A DNA stretch of 64,000 nt from Candidatus Nitrosopumilus salarius BD31 (GTDB lineage Archaea > Thermoproteota > Nitrososphaeria > Nitrososphaerales > Nitrosopumilaceae): contig NZ_AEXL02000090.1 in NCBI RefSeq assembly GCF_000242875.2, positions 1 through 64,000 of the forward strand. Reading direction: 5' to 3'. Below are positions 5,549 through 53,900 of this stretch, one piece after another; within the stretch, counting starts at the first letter, position 1; the number at the start of each line of letters is the position of its first letter. The position numbers were made by a program, and so were the translations under genes. The notes below the pieces were generated by a model. The model did not search any database and was not told the origin of the DNA. It saw nothing but the letters and a program-made list of their open reading frames with translations.

Positions 5549-5646
5549 TGGTGGACCGAATGGGATTTGAACCCACGACCTTTGCGGGAAATATTTTCCT
5601 TACGCAGTGTGAGTGCGTCATCCAAACCAAACTAGACGACCGGTCC
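5549..5646 (-). tRNA. tRNA-Val (anticodon CAC), intron-containing, CCA encoded
   Basis: The minus strand folds into a full cloverleaf. Acceptor GGACCGG pairs with TCGGTCC (last pair G-U); D stem GTCT/GGAT; anticodon stem ACGCA/TGCGT with loop CTCACAC (U33 present, anticodon CAC, valine); T arm GTGGG-TTCAAAT-CCCAT. The discriminator A is followed by an encoded CCA. The region between anticodon stem and T arm is 25 bases instead of five. Removing 20 bases (5581-5600) leaves AGGTC, a normal class I variable loop. The integrase gene starts just beyond the 3' end. Confidence 0.9.
5581..5600 (-). other. Non-canonical tRNA intron (20 nt, variable region)
   Basis: The precursor forms a bulge-helix-bulge. 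The 4-bp central helix TGCG:CGCA is followed on the 5' strand by a 3-base bulge TAA and on the 3' strand by a 3-base bulge AAG. The intron-side hairpin is GGAAA-ATA-TTTCC. Cutting after the second base of each bulge, the known rule for archaeal splicing endonuclease, removes exactly 20 bases and restores a normal tRNA. The exon-side helix is only two base pairs, so the motif is relaxed. The position, after base 44, is not the canonical 37/38 site. Confidence 0.8.
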
Positions 5647-9337: not shown

Positions 9338-12300
9338 TTATTCTACGGATATTCTGATTTTCTGACCGTCAATATCATCATCCTTGTATTCCTTACATGA
9401 GTCTTCAAAATTTACCTGTTTCACTCTGACCAAAAATGCCAGTTCTTCTGTTCTTTCTTTCATCATTTCTAATGACTCTTCGTCTAAATCCAAAATTGAT
9501 GCCACACCTAAAACATCGGTAGGGTTGTATCCTCTCTCTTTTCTCAATGTTTGCAGTCTTCTTGCAACATCTTTTACCAACCCTTTTGCCATCATCTCCC
9601 TGTTTCTTGCAGTGGAGATCAATACAATGTAGTTGTCTCTTTTTGACGCTGCAAAGTTTTCATCTGCATCAAAGTCTAGGATAAAATCTTCGTTGTCTAG
9701 TGAAATTGTTTCGCCATCTATGTTAAAATCATATTTTCCATCTTTTTGTAATGATGATATAACTTCATCAGGATTTGTTTCATTAAATGTGGAAACTAGT
9801 TTTCCCATGTGCTGTTTTGCTTTTGGTCCTATTTTTTTTCTTTCAAGTTCAATTTTAGCTTTGATTGGTAATCCCAGTTGTTTTAATTCCAAAATTTGTT
9901 CTAACCCTGATTCTTTTTCTGTTTCGAAGATACTGAATTTTTCTACATTTAATTGGGATTGCAATAAATCTGACAGTGATTCCAGTTTAGCTTTCTTTCC
10001 TTTTTCTACACAAATTCGTGCTTCGTTTAGTGGCCATCTTCTCTTTAGCTTTCCTTTCATTCTTGCAGCAGCTGATATTGAAATAATGTCTTTCATAATG
10101 TCAAATGATTCTTCAATTTTTTCATTTACAAGAGATTCTTGGGATTGAGGCCACTTGTCAAGTAGGATGCTTTGCTTTCCATCAAATACTGCTTGATACA
10201 AATACTCACTAGTAAATGGACAGAAAGGATGAATCAAAATATCTAAAGTTTTGAGAACACTGCTAAGCACTGCATAAATTGCCAGACGTCTGTTCTTCTT
10301 TTCTTCATCCTCATCCCATAACTCTCCTCTTGTAATTGGAATGTAAATCTGGCTTAGATTGTTAATTATGAAATCATCTATTGCCTTTGCACCTTCATGG
10401 AATTTGCATGTCTCATTTTTTTCTGTAATTTTTTGAATGAGTTTTTGGAGTTTTGATAAAAGCCAAATGTCTGGCGATGTTAATAAATTGCCTTGCTTTG
10501 CCCATTCAATTGTGTTTGTTGAATCAAAATTATCATACTGACTATTTTGTTTAAAGTATAGATGAAGATTGAATAGTGTGTTAATTACTTGATATGGTCT
10601 TGACATTAACTCCTCGGTGCTGAAACTAAGTGGTTCTATTGGACTTGCTTTCCACATAAAGTAGAATCTAATCAAATCTACGGGATATTTTTCTAGTAAT
10701 TCTTCACCATCCAATACATTTCCATGACTCTTGCTCATCTTTCCTCCCTTTTCATCCAGAACATGTCCTTGGAACAAAAATGCCTTGTATGGTGGAGTCG
10801 CAGCATTGTTCAAAATTACATTTTCAATCAGTAATGTGTACGCCCACCCTCTAGTTTGATCAATCCCTTCAGTGAAAAATGGTGCTGGAATCTCCCTTGA
10901 GTATTCCTCATCAGTCAAAGATGAATAAGGTGCAGATCCGCTATTGTGCCAAGTGTCTAAAACATATTCTTCTCTTTTTGTTTTTACACTGTTACATTTT
11001 TTGCACTTTACTGTGATGTTATCAATCCATGGTCTGTGTAATTCAAAGTCTGGACCGTCCGGTAACTGGTCTGCAGCTTTTACAATTTCCTCTCTGGTAA
11101 AGAACCAATTCTTCTCACCACAGTCTTCACAATTCCAGACAGGTAAAGGACAACCCCAAATTCTTTCTCTAGAAATACACCATGGATGTCTTTCTTTGAT
11201 TATTCCAAGAAATCTATTTTTTGGCTGCTCAAAAAAGTATTCTACACTCTCTGCAGCTTCTATTGCTTTGTTGTCTAGTCTGTCTAATTTGTAAAACCAT
11301 CCTCTTCTTGCAAGCCATACTATTGGGTGGTGTGATCTCCAGCAAAGCGGATACTTGTGTTTTATTTTTCCAATCTTCACTAATGCCTTACACTCTTTTA
11401 GATCTTCAACTATTATTCTGTCTGCATCTCTTACAAACATCCCTTGATACTTTCCAGCCTTTGTTGTGAATTTCACTTCGTCATCTATGGGGCTAAAAAT
11501 TTTCACATTTCTTTTATTTGCAATCTTGATATCTTCTTCACCGTTTGCAGGTGAGAGGTGAACCAGGCCACTTCCTGTACTTGCATCAACAAATGTTTCA
11601 GATACTGCAACATGATAATTCTCCAACTTTGAGCATTCGTTTAGTTCTGGAATTAGATTCAATAAAGGATGGATGTATTTTTTTCCTTCAAACTCTGATC
11701 CTTTCAAAATCTTTTCAATTTTGTAATCTTCAATCTTCAACTCTGTCATTAATTCTTCTAGTCTAGTTTTGCCCACTACCCATGTTTCATCTTCCACTTT
11801 GACATGTGCATAGTCTTCTTCAGGTTGTAGCCCAACCATTGCATCTGTAACTAGTGTGAATGGCATTGTAGTCCATACAATCAAAAATGCATCTTCATCT
11901 ACTAATTTTACTTTATAGTACAGAGAAGGATCCTTTACTTCTTCATATCCTTGATTTACTTCTGCATGACTAAGTGATGTCTGACAGCTTGGACAATATG
12001 CAATTACCGTAAAGTCTTCTTCTAAAATCCCATTCTCATGTGCTTTTTTTAATATCTGCCATTCTCTCTCAATAAATTCATCTCTAAATGTCCAGTATGC
12101 TTTTTTATGATTAAATGACATGCCAAGTAATTCATCAACCTTGACCCATGACTTGTTGAATTTTTCTACAACTTTTTTACATTCCGAAACAATTCTTTCT
12201 ACTCCAAATTGTTTGATTGCCTCAGTTTTTCCACCAGTAACTCCTAACTCTTTTTCCACTTGAAGTTCTACTGGCAGTCCCTGAGTATCCCAACCTCCGT

Positions 12301-12535
12301 TGAACTCTATCTTTTTTCCTTGGAGTGTGTTGTATCTATACCACAAATCTTTGATGACTCTTCCTCTTAGGTGACCCGCATGTGGAACTCCATTCATTGT
12401 AGGTGGGCCTTCGATAAATCTGATCTTTTCAGGTTTATCTGATGCAAAAATCTGTTTTTCTAAATCAAAAGATTTTATGTATTCCTTTATTTGGGATTCT
12501 ATTTCCTTTGCATCAAATTTAGTAGAAAGTTCCAT
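9338..12535 (-). CDS. ileS: Isoleucyl-tRNA synthetase
   Basis: 1065 residues, the expected size. Class I signature HAGH at residues 52-55 (HIGH box), KMSKSHGN at about 600, a CP1 editing domain between them (WTTMPFTLVTDA) and the WNCEDCG and KCKKCNSVKT zinc segments. The C-terminal anticodon-binding region is of the archaeal/eukaryal type. It attaches isoleucine to tRNA-Ile in the cytoplasm. The ATG lies about 27 bases from a TATA-like box on the minus strand, so a leaderless transcript is likely. Divergent from purD. Confidence 0.97.
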   Translation of the reverse strand: MELSTKFDAKEIESQIKEYIKSFDLEKQIFASDKPEKIRFIEGPPTMNGVPHAGHLRGRVIKDLWYRYNTLQGKKIEFNGGWDTQGLPVELQVEKELGVTGGKTEAIKQFGVERIVSECKKVVEKFNKSWVKVDELLGMSFNHKKAYWTFRDEFIEREWQILKKAHENGILEEDFTVIAYCPSCQTSLSHAEVNQGYEEVKDPSLYYKVKLVDEDAFLIVWTTMPFTLVTDAMVGLQPEEDYAHVKVEDETWVVGKTRLEELMTELKIEDYKIEKILKGSEFEGKKYIHPLLNLIPELNECSKLENYHVAVSETFVDASTGSGLVHLSPANGEEDIKIANKRNVKIFSPIDDEVKFTTKAGKYQGMFVRDADRIIVEDLKECKALVKIGKIKHKYPLCWRSHHPIVWLARRGWFYKLDRLDNKAIEAAESVEYFFEQPKNRFLGIIKERHPWCISRERIWGCPLPVWNCEDCGEKNWFFTREEIVKAADQLPDGPDFELHRPWIDNITVKCKKCNSVKTKREEYVLDTWHNSGSAPYSSLTDEEYSREIPAPFFTEGIDQTRGWAYTLLIENVILNNAATPPYKAFLFQGHVLDEKGGKMSKSHGNVLDGEELLEKYPVDLIRFYFMWKASPIEPLSFSTEELMSRPYQVINTLFNLHLYFKQNSQYDNFDSTNTIEWAKQGNLLTSPDIWLLSKLQKLIQKITEKNETCKFHEGAKAIDDFIINNLSQIYIPITRGELWDEDEEKKNRRLAIYAVLSSVLKTLDILIHPFCPFTSEYLYQAVFDGKQSILLDKWPQSQESLVNEKIEESFDIMKDIISISAAARMKGKLKRRWPLNEARICVEKGKKAKLESLSDLLQSQLNVEKFSIFETEKESGLEQILELKQLGLPIKAKIELERKKIGPKAKQHMGKLVSTFNETNPDEVISSLQKDGKYDFNIDGETISLDNEDFILDFDADENFAASKRDNYIVLISTARNREMMAKGLVKDVARRLQTLRKERGYNPTDVLGVASILDLDEESLEMMKERTEELAFLVRVKQVNFEDSCKEYKDDDIDGQKIRISVE

Positions 12536-40565: not shown

Positions 40566-41729
40566 GTCACAATTACTACAAAGAAATCAAACCACGCAAA
40601 AAAGTTTGGAAAGCTGATTTTTGACGATGGAACTGTTCTTGATGGTGAAGGTTTTGGTTATTCTACAACTACTTTTGGCGAAATTGTCTTCAATACCGGA
40701 ATGGTCGGCTATACTGAAGCCCTCACAGACCCTTCATACTGTGGTCAAATTCTTACACTTACATATCCACTAGTTGGAAATTATGGCGTTCCTGATGTTT
40801 CCATTAAAGATAGCGATGGAATCCCAAAGTTCTTTGAATCTGAGAAAATCCAGGTTCGGGGTCTCGTAGTTCATGAACTATCCCTTACTGCAAGTCACTG
40901 GAATCTTTCCATGACACTAGATGAATGGTTATACAACGAAAAGATTCCGGGAATCTCTGGAATTGATACACGTGAGCTAACAAAGAAGATTAGAACTGGC
41001 GGTGTCATGATGGCAGCACTAGTTGTATCTGATTCTGAAATTAATGTAGATGAGATAAAAAAACAGCTTACAATTGCTCCAAAATATGATTCTGAGCAAT
41101 TTATGGATGATGTGTCAACTAAACAAGAAAAAGTATATGGAAATGAAATCCAGTCTGTGGTTGTAGTTGACACTGGTGCAAAAAATGCAATAATTCGAAA
41201 CATTCGTGAAATTGGTTACAAAGTAATTCGTCTTCCATGGGATACTACATATGAGAAGATAATGTCTTACCATCCAAAAGGCGTCGTGTTAAGTAGCGGT
41301 CCTGGTGATCCTCAAAAATGCCCTGACACGATTAACACTGCTAAAAAATTAATTGAAAATAATGTTCCTACGTTGGGGATTTGTTTGGGCGCACAAATTA
41401 TTGGCATTGCAGGAAACACTGACACTTACAAACTAAAGTACGGGCATCGTGGACAAAACAAACCATGTGTCAATTTAGAGAACAATCAAGTTTATGTGAC
41501 TAGTCAGAATCATGGGTATGGGATTACTCCAGAATCTCTTGCAAAGTCTGAATTTAATTTATGGTTTACAAATGCAGACGACAAAACAGTTGAAGGAATA
41601 AAACACAAAAAACAAAAGTGCATTGCAGTACAGTTTCACCCCGAAGCTGCACCTGGTCCTTACGATTGCAAGTTCGTCTTTGAAGAGCTACAACACCTTA
41701 TGGAGGAAGGAACATCTGCCAAAGAATGA
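40566..41729 (+). CDS. carA: Carbamoyl-phosphate synthase small subunit, start codon non-standard
   Basis: About 387 residues if read from 40566. The first ATG in frame (40701) is inside the conserved core. The 45 codons before it are clearly coding (FGKLIFDDGTVLDGEGFGY, then STTTFGEIVFNTG), so the real start is at GTC 40566 or ATT 40572, neither a usual start. Class I amidotransferase domain with Cys nucleophile in GICLGAQIIG, and His and Glu in QFHPEA. It hydrolyses glutamine and channels ammonia to CarB for pyrimidine and arginine synthesis. Its 3' end overlaps carB by 14 bases. Confidence 0.9.
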   Translation, partial: VTITTKKSNHAKKFGKLIFDDGTVLDGEGFGYSTTTFGEIVFNTGMVGYTEALTDPSYCGQILTLTYPLVGNYGVPDVSIKDSDGIPKFFESEKIQVRGLVVHELSLTASHWNLSMTLDEWLYNEKIPGISGIDTRELTKKIRTGGVMMAALVVSDSEINVDEIKKQLTIAPKYDSEQFMDDVSTKQEKVYGNEIQSVVVVDTGAKNAIIRNIREIGYKVIRLPWDTTYEKIMSYHPKGVVLSSGPGDPQKCPDTINTAKKLIENNVPTLGICLGAQIIGIAGNTDTYKLKYGHRGQNKPCVNLENNQVYVTSQNHGYGITPESLAKSEFNLWFTNADDKTVEGIKHKKQKCIAVQFHPEAAPGPYDCKFVFEELQHLMEEGTSAKE

Positions 41730-44700
41730 ATCGTTAAAGAAAATTCTTGTACTTGGAAGTGGGGCTATCAAAATCGGAGAAGCCGGCGAGAGTCGCTAAA
41801 AACGACCGCTAATTTGACTACTCCGGAAGCCAATGCCTCAAAGCCATACGAGAAGATGGTCTGAAGAGTGTTTTAATCAATCCGAACATTGCTACAATCC
41901 AGACTGATACTAGATTTGCAGATCAAGTGTATCTTCTTCCCGTAAACCAGCAGTATGTGGAATCTATTATCGAAAAAGAAAGGCCAGACGGAATTATGCT
42001 GGCATATGGTGGTCAAACCGCTCTAAACTGTGGGGTTAGCCTAGAGGAATCTGGCGCACTCCAAAAGTATGGAGTACAAGTACTGGGAACCCAAATCAAA
42101 GGAATTCAAAAGACTGAGGATCGACAGTTGTTCAAGGATTCAATGTCTGAGTGCGACGTACCTGTATTGAGAAGCAAGACTGTCACAAATTTTGAAGATG
42201 CAAAAAAGGCAGCAGAAGAGTTGGCCTATCCTGTAATAGTTAGAGTTGCATACACTCTGGGTGGACGAGGTGGCGGAGTTGCATATAATGAAATTGAACT
42301 ACATGAAATTGTTGAGCGAGGATTCAAGGCAAGTATTGTTGGCCAAGTTCTGATTGAAGAATACATTGGACACTGGAAGCAAATTGAATATGAGGTAATG
42401 CAAGACTATGATGGAAATAACGTAATTGTATGTAACATGGAAAACATTCTTTCCATGAAAGCACACACTGGTGATAACATTGTAGTTGCACCATCACAAA
42501 CAATTGACAATCATGAATACCATATGTTACGCTCTGCCGCATTACGTGCAACTAAGCATGTTGGAATTGTCGGCGAATGCAACATCCAATATGCACTTGA
42601 ACCAAACTCTGACCGATATGTTGCAATTGAAATTAACCCACGACTTTCTCGATCTTCTGCTCTTGCAAGTAAGGCAACTGGATATCCACTTGCATACATG
42701 TCTGCAAAAATTGGACTTGGTTACAACTTATCTGAACTAGTAAACAGAATCACAAAAAATACTACAGCTTGTTTTGAACCCTCACTTGATTACATTGTAT
42801 GCAAACATCCTCGTTGGGATTTTGAAAAGTTTGAACTAGTAAACAGACGACTCGGACCTACAATGAAATCGGTTGGCGAAGTAATGGCAGTTGGAAGAAC
42901 GTTTGAGGAATCATTTCAAAAAGCAATTCGAATGCTTGACATTGGAAATGACGGACTAGTTTTGAATCGTGTAAACGGAAAAACTTACTCTGAAGAAGAA
43001 ATTGAAGACAAACTCTCTCACCATGATGATCACATTATGTACAATGTTGCAATTGCCTTGAAAATGGGGATCTCTGTTGAGAGAATCTATAAACTCTCTA
43101 CCATTGATCCTTGGTTTATTGAAAAATAAAAATATTGTAGATGTAGAATCAAAAATAAAACAATCGGAACTTGATGAATCGCTTCTATGGGAGGCAAAAA
43201 AGATGGGCTTTTCAGACAAGCAAATTGCTCGAGCCAAAGACCAAACCCCTGATGATGTGCGTGCGTTACGCAAGAAATACGGTGTATTGCCATCTGTAAA
43301 GCAAATTGACACATTAGCTGCTGAATGGCCTGCCGTGACAAACTACCTGTACCTTACATATGGAGGACACTCAAATGACATCATTATTCCTTCTGATGAA
43401 AAAGGAATTGTAGTTCTTGGTGCAGGTCCATACCGAATTGGAAGTAGTGTTGAATTTGATTGGGGTACAGTCAACATGGTATGGGGTCTACAAGAAAATG
43501 GAGAGAAGAGCGTATCTGTTGTAAACTGTAATCCTGAAACTGTCTCTACTGATTATGATATTTGTACTAGACTATACTTTGAAGAACTAACTGAAGAGCG
43601 AATTTTAGACATCAATGAGTTTGAACATCCAAAAGGAATCATTACTTGTGTTGGAGGACAGACTGCAAATAATCTTACTCCTGGACTTGCAGCACATGGA
43701 ATCCATATCTTGGGAACTAGTGCATATGATGTTGATAGAGCAGAGAACCGTTCAAAATTTAGTGCAGAGCTTGACAAACTTCACATACAGCAACCACGAT
43801 GGCAAGCATTTACCAATCTTAACGAGGCAAAAATTTTTGCCCAAGATGTTGGATTTCCAGTAATTGTTAGACCATCGTATGTTTTATCAGGTGCTGCCAT
43901 GAAAGTTGTCTGGTCTCAAGAACAACTAAAACAATATGTCCAAGAAGCAACAGATGTATCTCCGGACCATCCTGTAGTTATCTCGAAATTCATGTTAAAT
44001 TCCCTTGAAGTAGACGTTGATGGAATCAGTAATGGTAAGGAAGTTGTAATTGGTGCAATAGTTGAACACATTGACAGTGCAGGTGTTCACTCTGGTGACG
44101 CAATGATGTGCATTCCACCATGGCGTCTAAGTAACAAAATAATTGAAATCATAAATGATTATACAAAAAAGATTGCACTTACATTTAATGTCAAAGGACC
44201 ATTCAACTTACAATTTCTTATCTCCGATGATCATGTCTATGTGATTGAGCTTAACATTAGAGCATCACGTTCAATGCCATTTGTATCAAAACTAGTCAAA
44301 ACGAACCTCATATCACTTGCAGCAAAGGCAATTTTGGACAAACCCTTGCCTAAAATCCCTGAAAACAAGTGGCAGAGAATTCACAATTATGGTATCAAAG
44401 TACCACAGTTTTCCTTTATGCAATTAGAAGGGGCAGATATTGCACTGGGAGTAGAAATGCAGTCTACTGGTGAGGCTGCATGCTTCGGAAACAGCTTCTA
44501 TGATGCACTATCAAAGGGATTGATATCAGTAGGATACACTCTGCCAAAATCTGGAACTGCGTTAGTAACAGTAGGCGGTGCTCAAAATAAGGAGAAACTA
44601 GTATCTACCATTGCAAAACTCAAACAACTTGGTTTTGATATTCTGGGAACAGAGCACACTGCAGAGTTCTTTAAAGAAAAAATTGGTGAGGTACAAATAG

Positions 44701-44978
44701 TTCACAAAATTTCAGAACCTGACAGAAAACCAAATATTGCAGATCTTCTCTATGAGCGAAAGATTGACTTTATCATAAACATTCCAAGTACTTCCACTCT
44801 GGAAAAATATGTTGGGATGCTTGATGATGAATATCAAATCCGACGCAAGTCTTTGGAGTTGGGAATTCCAGTACTTACTACAATAGAATTAGCTGATTCC
44901 TTTGTAAAGACTCTTGATTGGCTAAAAAACAATAAACCTACAATTGAGCCCATTGAACCCTATGATCATTACGAATGA
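41716..44978 (+). CDS. carB: Carbamoyl-phosphate synthase large subunit, split by a 22-nt intron-like insertion and a second frameshift
   Basis: Homology begins at CTG 41716 (then PKNESLKKILVLGSGAIKIG), overlapping carA. It runs 25 codons to GEAGE and is interrupted by 22 bases (41791-41812) bringing an in-frame stop. It resumes as FDYSGSQCLKAIRED in the ORF to 43129 (first ATP-grasp: VRVAYTLGGRGGGVAYN, EINPRLSRSSALASKATGYP), stops after DPWFIEK, and continues two bases short (or one too many) from about 43125 as NIVDVESKIKQ. The second ATP-grasp (VRPSYVLSGAAMKVVW, ELNIRASRSMPFVSK) and the MGS-like allosteric domain follow. Repaired length is about 1080 residues, normal for CarB. Both synthetase halves are well conserved, which argues the gene is under selection. 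Type CDS is kept because removal of the insertion rejoins the frame exactly. Confidence 0.9.
41791..41812 (+). other. Candidate 22-nt protein-gene intron with bulge-helix-bulge motif
   Basis: Flanks: GGC GAG (41785-41790) and TTT GAC (41813 onward) encode the invariant G-E-F-D. Structure: central helix GGCG (41785-41788) pairs with CGCT (41807-41810; one G-U). The 5' bulge is AGA (41789-41791), the intron hairpin GTCG-CTAAAAA-CGAC (41792-41806), the 3' bulge AAT (41811-41813). Cutting between the second and third base of each bulge excises exactly 41791-41812. The immediate outer helix is absent, but CGGAG (41775-41779) can pair with CTCCG (41821-41825) beyond an internal loop. The insertion contains TAA in frame, so unspliced mRNA cannot give full CarB. 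Confidence 0.7.
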
Positions 44979-52389: not shown

Positions 52390-53900
52390 AAATTAGAATA
52401 TTTGATACAACATTAAGAGACGGAGAGCAAACAATTGGTGTATCATTATCACCAGATCAAAAACTTGCAATTGCAAAAAAACTTGACGAGCTTGGCGTTG
52501 ATGCAATTGAAGCTGGGTTCCCAGTAATTTCAGAAGGTGAATTCAAAGCAGTCAAAATGATCACAAGTGAAGGATTATCTTGTGAGATTGCAGGATTGAC
52601 AAGAACTATAAAAAAAGATATTGACGCTGCAGTTGATGCTGGATTAAATTATATCCACACATTCATTGCAACATCTGACATTCACTTGGAGCATAAACTC
52701 AAAATGACCCGAGATCAAGCCCTTGCAAAAGCAATTGAGGCAGTAGAATATGGAAAATCACGTGGTCTTCAAGTAGAATTTTCAGCTGAAGATGCTTCGA
52801 GAACAGAAAGAGATTTTTTAAAAAAAGTATTTGGTCAAGTAGCAAAAGCAGGAGCTGATAGAGTTAACATTCCTGACACTGTGGGATATGCTACTCCTGA
52901 ATATATGGCAGAAATTACCAGAGATACAATAGAAGCTACAAAACTTCCAGTTAGTGTTCACTGTCATAATGATTTTGGATTAGCTGTTGCAAACTCTTTG
53001 GCTGGAATTCATGCCGGAGCATCATGTGCACATGTGACAATAAATGGTATTGGTGAACGTGCAGGAAATGCATCGTTGGAAGAACTTTCTATGGCATTGA
53101 AATGTTTACCCTATGAACAAAAATATGAAACTAATGTCAAATCTGAATTAATTTACGAGACATCTAGATTTATCTCGAAGACTGTAGGAATTATGGTCCA
53201 ACCAAACAAGGCAATTGTTGGTGCTAACGCATTTGGTCATGAATCAGGTATTCATACGCATGGTGTGTTGAGCAACCCCCTCACTTACGAGCCTATCAGT
53301 CCTGAATTAGTTGGAAGAAAGAGATGGCTTCAAGTTGGAAAACATGCTGGAGTTCATGGAATGAATGCAATGCTTGCAGAATATGGGGTAAAACCAACTG
53401 AAGAGCAATCACAACAAATCTTAGACAAAGTCAAAGTGCTAGGTGATCAAGGAAAGCAAATCACTGATGTTGAGTTACTCTCTATCGCAAGTGATGTTTT
53501 GGGAGAAAAAGAACTCAAAAGAATTGTTCAGTTAACTGGGTTCTCAGTATCAACAGGTATTGGAACAATGCCTTACGCATTTGTAAAGTTAAACATTGAT
53601 GGTCAAGATCATATTGGAACTGATTATGGTGTTGGTCCGGTAGATGCCGCACTTAATGCAATTCAAAAGATTACTGGAAAGATTTCAGAGATTAGGATAA
53701 AAGATTATGGGTTGGCATCTATCTCCGGCGGTTCTTCGGCACTATGTGAAGTCACAGTAAAAGTTGAAGATGCATTAGGAAATAAGGTATCTGCAAAATC
53801 AGTTGGTGAGGACATTGTAACCACTTCAGTTAAAGCAGTAATTGATGCCATTAATAGAATAATGCTCAAAAAAATGCTTGGCGAAAAACAGTTAAGCTAA
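52386..53900 (+). CDS. leuA: 2-isopropylmalate synthase (LeuA family)
   Basis: 504 residues. N-terminal TIM barrel with DTTLRDGEQTIGVSL, HCHNDFGLAVANS (metal His) and GIGERAGNASLEE. The LeuA dimer/regulatory domain follows (from about 380: GIGTMPYAFVKLNIDG, YGVGPVDAALNAI, GLASISGGSSA). It condenses acetyl-CoA with 2-oxoisovalerate. A citramalate or homocitrate role is possible in this family, but the operon with ilvBN and leuB favours leucine synthesis. Confidence 0.9.
   Translation: MKIRIFDTTLRDGEQTIGVSLSPDQKLAIAKKLDELGVDAIEAGFPVISEGEFKAVKMITSEGLSCEIAGLTRTIKKDIDAAVDAGLNYIHTFIATSDIHLEHKLKMTRDQALAKAIEAVEYGKSRGLQVEFSAEDASRTERDFLKKVFGQVAKAGADRVNIPDTVGYATPEYMAEITRDTIEATKLPVSVHCHNDFGLAVANSLAGIHAGASCAHVTINGIGERAGNASLEELSMALKCLPYEQKYETNVKSELIYETSRFISKTVGIMVQPNKAIVGANAFGHESGIHTHGVLSNPLTYEPISPELVGRKRWLQVGKHAGVHGMNAMLAEYGVKPTEEQSQQILDKVKVLGDQGKQITDVELLSIASDVLGEKELKRIVQLTGFSVSTGIGTMPYAFVKLNIDGQDHIGTDYGVGPVDAALNAIQKITGKISEIRIKDYGLASISGGSSALCEVTVKVEDALGNKVSAKSVGEDIVTTSVKAVIDAINRIMLKKMLGEKQLS

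Follow-up and report, generated by a model that had tools for sequence, protein, structure and literature searches.

The first 64,000 nucleotides of contig NZ_AEXL02000090.1 of Candidatus Nitrosopumilus salarius BD31 (hereafter the window) carry two short inserts, one in the variable loop (V-loop) of the gene for tRNA-Val(CAC) and the other in carB, which encodes a carbamoyl-phosphate synthase with the domains CPSase_L_D1/D2/D3 and MGS. Each insert is associated with a bulge-helix-bulge (BHB) motif. A tRNA-Val(cac) is called by ARAGORN at 5549-5646 on the minus strand, and carB follows carA on the plus strand at 41716-44978. The two genes are laid out as follows.

5601..5646, minus strand: tRNA-Val(CAC) exon 1, mature positions 1-44, with the anticodon CAC (ARAGORN, RF00005; the spliced sequence is a class I cloverleaf)
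5603..5606, minus strand: exon strand TGCG of the predicted tRNA-Val central helix, within the anticodon-stem 3´ strand, pairing with 5583-5586
5581..5600, minus strand: predicted tRNA-Val BHB intron of 20 nt, AGGAAAATATTTCCCGCAAA, between mature positions 44 and 45 (BHB geometry, family covariation)
5583..5586, minus strand: intron strand CGCA of the predicted tRNA-Val central helix, close to the insert's 3´ end (BHB geometry, family covariation)
5549..5580, minus strand: tRNA-Val exon 2, comprising the remainder of the V-loop (GGTC), the T-arm, the acceptor and an encoded CCA (ARAGORN)
41716..41790, plus strand: carB exon 1, 25 codons from CTG, LPKNESLKKILVLGSGAIKIGEAGE, overlapping the end of carA
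41791..41812, plus strand: predicted carB BHB intron of 22 nt, AGTCGCTAAAAACGACCGCTAA (BHB geometry, relatives)
41813..44978, plus strand: carB exon 2, FDYSGSQC... to the stop

The tRNA-Val(CAC) gene has complete acceptor, D, anticodon and T arms and is present in one copy in the genome by pattern search. Its minus-strand sequence consists of GGACCGGTCGTCTAGTTTGGTTTGGATGACGCACTCACACTGCGTA upstream of the intron and GGTCGTGGGTTCAAATCCCATTCGGTCCACCA downstream of it. In the unspliced form, 25 bases separate the anticodon stem from the T stem where five is normal, and with the insert present the gene scores 46.3 bits against RF00005 (Rfam). When the precursor is numbered from window position 5646 as 1, a central helix of 4 bp is formed between TGCG at 41-44 (5606-5603) and CGCA at 61-64 (5586-5583). 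Next to it, one at each exon-intron junction and on opposite strands, are the 3-nt bulges TAA at 45-47 (5602-5600) and AAG at 65-67 (5582-5580), and the intron itself folds into an inner stem, GGAAA/TTTCC, with the loop ATA. If both bulges are cut after their second base, 47-66 (5600-5581), 20 nt in all, would be taken out and the V-loop AGGTC would be left; the sequence spliced in this way is again a tRNA-Val(cac) with a class I cloverleaf (ARAGORN). For the unspliced RNA, the ensemble centroid shows the same motif, extended by the outer pairs C40-G68 and A39-U69. A first-pass annotation of this DNA had proposed a 20-nt intron at 5581-5600 with a 4-bp helix and two 3-base bulges, at a non-canonical position and yielding AGGTC. 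The geometry, the centroid and the covariation within the family confirm the proposed intron and its boundaries, its position at 44/45 is indeed non-canonical, and the V-loop obtained from the cut rule is the one found in intronless orthologues.

The motif is not easily produced by chance. A BHB of the right length arose in 80 of 20,000 shuffles of the 25-nt V region, and none of these gave AGGTC as the product. Both strands of the 64 kb were also scanned for strict BHB motifs with at least four GC pairs and at most one GU pair, which returned 18 matches vs 12-14 in shuffled windows. The carB site ranked first and the tRNA-Val site second, making them the two best strict motifs of the window. 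The shuffles, this ranking and the compensatory changes described below rule out a chance BHB at tRNA-Val. The third-ranked motif, at 52741 on the minus strand (GCCT CAA TTGC..GCAA GGGC TTG), is probably due to chance.

At the carB insert, the helix pairs GGCG (41785-41788) with CGCT (41807-41810) and the bulges are AGA (41789-41791) and AAT (41811-41813), so that the order GGCG / AGA / GTCG...CGAC / CGCT / AAT is that of a strict BHB. The first-pass annotation had seen the same architecture in both inserts, and both do have a strict 3-4-3 BHB with an inner helix. It had also suggested a single endonuclease of relaxed specificity; this is unnecessary because both motifs are strict, and only their locations, in a V-loop and in an mRNA, are unusual. 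Removal of the carB insert restores the frame GEAGE^FDYSG, and the same junction is found in 22 intronless relatives. Within the genus, 8 of 30 carB loci have the insert in a length of 21 or 22 nt, with an in-frame TAA inside the 21-nt version, and the other matching loci have a direct GARTTY join. A scan of this codon boundary in 84,980 species, each represented by a single genome, combined with the genus loci such that a few genomes are possibly counted twice between the collections, yielded at least 110 carB loci with an insert, nearly all from Nitrososphaeria where titles were shown. At least 74 of the inserts are distinct, with lengths of 17-34 nt, mostly 20-26 nt. None of the 74 distinct inserts listed can be read through, as each either breaks the frame or contains a stop.

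An improbable alternative is that the tRNA-Val intron is spliced and the carB insert is not, CarB being made by translational restart or by bypass of the insert. The reading frame does reopen directly after the insert and a downstream start is possible, but a restart would lose the conserved N-terminal GSGAIKIGEAGE motif, which is kept upstream. The structure and variation of the inserts likewise argue against restart or bypass: they are precisely absent in relatives, they differ in length, and among the 74 distinct inserts listed, 67 have the 3-4-3 BHB with its 4-bp central helix and the other 7 have helices of 3 bp. Inner stems covary as well. The exon Gly codon that makes up half of the helix is GGC at 108 of the 110 loci listed, and at the remaining two it is GGT, paired with CACC in the intron; in the intronless relatives the codon is GGA (12), GGT (8) or GGC (2). 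Such compensation between exon and intron is hard to explain other than by RNA splicing, and the carB insert is very probably spliced. It is highly probable that it constitutes a genuine pre-mRNA intron across most of Nitrososphaerota, including Nitrosopumilus, Nitrosarchaeum, Nitrosotenuis, Nitrosotalea, Cenarchaeum, Nitrososphaera and Nitrosocosmicus. Arginine and pyrimidine synthesis in ammonia-oxidising archaea would thus depend on the tRNA-splicing enzymes, which would act on the V-loop intron of tRNA-Val as well. The carB intron appears to have been present already in the ancestor of most of the phylum and to have been cleanly lost from part of Nitrosopumilus. Inserts of BHB type at the same codon boundary were also seen in two Woesearchaeota (L178, L189) and one Candidatus Iainarchaeum (L187); these DPANN inserts may have been transferred horizontally, go back to a deep ancestor or have been gained independently.

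The tRNA-Val insert is family-wide. By sequence search, the 98-base gene with its insert was found in 50 of 60 genus genomes, the window's own included. A pattern search for tRNA-Val(CAC) in 200 relatives placed an insert at the same site in approximately 79 of 95 genus genomes and in 18 of 25 genomes from other genera, or in about 97 of the 120 genomes of the family. Named carriers include uncultured Nitrosopumilus, Nitrosopumilus sp. b1, one Nitrosarchaeum and one Cenarchaeum, and two Nitrosotalea genomes lack the insert. Outside the family but within the order, the V-loop of Val(CAC) is mostly of normal length and often AGGTC, identical to the predicted product. The family sequences comprise 67 distinct versions with introns of 16-25 nt, and the 4-bp central helix is complete in 66 of them, with co-varying exon and intron strands (TGCG/CGCA, AGCG/CGCT and GGCG/CGTC). 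Of the inner pairs of the intron, the second and the third are present in all 67, compared with shuffle maxima of 62 and 57, and these two pairs occur in G-C, A-U and C-G versions. The first bulge is always TAA or TAT. In the simplest history, the intron was gained in the ancestor of the family and was lost from, or is absent in, Nitrosotalea and a few others. Longer spans from the anticodon to the T-arm were observed in Val(CAC)-like genes of three families, f2, f8 and f9 (G162:C5, G164, G081:C72, G165:C64, G171:C293), and these are possibly introns at other positions.

A very unlikely reading of the tRNA-Val gene is that it encodes an atypical class II tRNA whose 25-nt V region, a genuine long variable arm, is retained in the mature molecule. 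The unspliced gene with its 25-nt variable region is accepted by ARAGORN and there is a 5-bp hairpin inside the insert, but this hairpin is off-centre, with the ten bases CGCAAAGGTC behind it, and the length of the insert is variable. Moreover, the CGCA of the intron covaries with a strand of the anticodon stem, which is not required of a variable arm, and in several intronless orthologues the V-loop is 5 nt long and identical to the product predicted here. A helical variable arm conserved in orthologues is not what is observed, and a long arm is rejected on the covariation with the anticodon stem and on the intronless orthologues; the cloverleaf with such an arm, which the first-pass annotation had named as a finding that would speak against the intron, is not a better reading. 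That the insert came by chance into a tRNA pseudogene in decay has a negligible probability: its covariance score (46 bits) is lower than that of most tRNAs of the genome, but its arms are intact, a pattern search found no other Val(CAC) in the genome, and the family-wide conservation of the insert, with compensation, is the reason to reject it.

The genome encodes enzymes that could process both inserts. A profile search revealed two PF01974 genes. One is located 12.7 kb outside the window on the same contig and has the catalytic Tyr, His and Lys by inspection. The alpha-type protein matches crenarchaeal alpha subunits (2cv8, 1.2e-41; 3p1z chain B, 1.1e-40), of which 3p1z chain B is presumably the alpha subunit of the Aeropyrum pernix endonuclease. 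Lys35 of the alpha-type protein aligns in a gap-free stretch to position 44 of 3p1z_B; in the A. pernix alpha subunit, Lys44 of the specific loop is required for broad specificity (PMC6379350). In the second PF01974 protein, inspection shows no catalytic His, and this protein is consistent with a beta subunit. Splicing endonucleases of the alpha2beta2 type have been attributed to Thaumarchaeota in a review (PMC4090602), and the endonuclease of this genome, encoded as separate alpha and beta genes, would be of this type, which is known for broad specificity. The RtcB ligase is also encoded (E = 1.5e-179), such that a splicing endonuclease and a ligase, as expected with a BHB tRNA intron, are found in the same genome.

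We favour, with a probability of roughly 95%, a functional tRNA-Val(CAC) with a BHB intron that is cut by an alpha2beta2 endonuclease and joined by RtcB, the same enzymes very probably acting on the carB intron. In the precursor, the anticodon-stem 3´ strand (TGCG) would pair with CGCA of the intron in place of its 5´ partner strand, giving rise to a helix of 4 bp between two bulges of 3 nt each, and the intron hairpin would close this motif. The cuts made by the endonuclease would lie, along the transcript, just past 5601 and just past 5581, and RtcB would join the exons, upon which the anticodon stem could close. The expected product is a normal class I tRNA-Val with the V-loop AGGTC. Excision of the 22-nt carB intron (41791-41812) would very probably follow from the same enzymes and produce the GEAGE-FDYSG frame of carbamoyl-phosphate synthase. 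Cleavage, ligation, assembly of the subunits and the use of one enzyme for both introns are what we infer from sequence. Several points weigh against this model. Excision of the tRNA-Val intron is deduced from comparative sequence, and the subunit type of the endonuclease is likewise assigned on sequence only. In approximately 20 family genomes the Val(CAC) pattern was not matched, due to incomplete assemblies or divergent genes, and in three family genomes (G132, G139, G142) Val(CAC) was matched and is intronless.

Non-canonical tRNA introns are known in this phylum, and the tRNA-Val intron is therefore a further case of a known class. A BHB model made for Thaumarchaeota is part of tRNAscan-SE 2.0, and 107 non-canonical introns are counted in the phylum (PMC8450103). 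Like these, the tRNA-Val intron is short, is located outside 37/38 and leaves a normal tRNA, and we see no difference in kind; the intron at 44/45 of tRNA-Val(CAC) may already be among those catalogued. It shares the BHB motif and the enzyme class with canonical archaeal introns at 37/38, but differs from them in position: it is cut in the V-loop, and the anticodon-stem 3´ strand provides the exon half of its central helix. We found nothing specific on V-loop introns of tRNAs in Nitrosopumilus in the open-licence literature, which is weak evidence of novelty. What the intron adds to the class is one well-supported, family-wide example with clear covariation between exon and intron. ARAGORN also reports introns near the anticodon in other tRNAs of the genome, namely Leu(CAA) with 20 nt, Tyr(GTA) with 50 nt and Ser(GGA) with 14 nt. 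The intron-bearing tRNA loci are the following.

C110 6238-6337 and 32342-32465; C41 2997-3094: intron-bearing tRNA loci L131, L136 and L132

The carB intron outweighs that of tRNA-Val in significance since documented archaeal protein-gene introns hardly exceed cbf5. BHB introns in cbf5 pre-mRNA have been documented in Crenarchaeota, in Sulfolobales and Desulfurococcales, and a 2009 survey recorded none for this gene in either Nitrosopumilus or Cenarchaeum (PMC2738675). The cbf5 introns serve as the model for the carB insert, which similarly has a BHB at both junctions and restores an interrupted conserved frame when removed. The carB intron differs in that it is found in another gene and another phylum and is mostly 20-26 nt long. 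No publication on a carB intron was found in the open-licence literature, again weak evidence of novelty, and a conserved intron in an essential protein gene such as this is rare and apparently undescribed. If the reading holds, carB would be the second, and a very widespread, archaeal protein-gene intron besides cbf5. Its presence over most of a globally important phylum of ammonia oxidisers would make pre-mRNA splicing by tRNA enzymes directly testable in cultured strains; Candidatus Nitrosotalea devanaterra and Nitrososphaera sp. AFS are among the carriers of the insert. Protein-gene introns in archaea also disrupt annotation, and gene calling would give carB as a fragment or place its start too late.

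A few minor observations concern carB itself. The ORF at 9338-12535 was rejected as carB, as it reads as an isoleucyl-tRNA synthetase by inspection. The start codon at 41716-41718 is apparently CTG, likewise in seven other intron-bearing genus genomes checked, and several intronless relatives have ATG or TTG. A second frame break is present in carB at 43117-43131 on the plus strand, where the sequence is GAAAAATAAAAATATT and relatives have GAAAAAATAAAAAATATT or similar. This break is unique to the present assembly among the loci compared and fits two one-base losses in A-runs; it is probably a sequencing error and not an intron.
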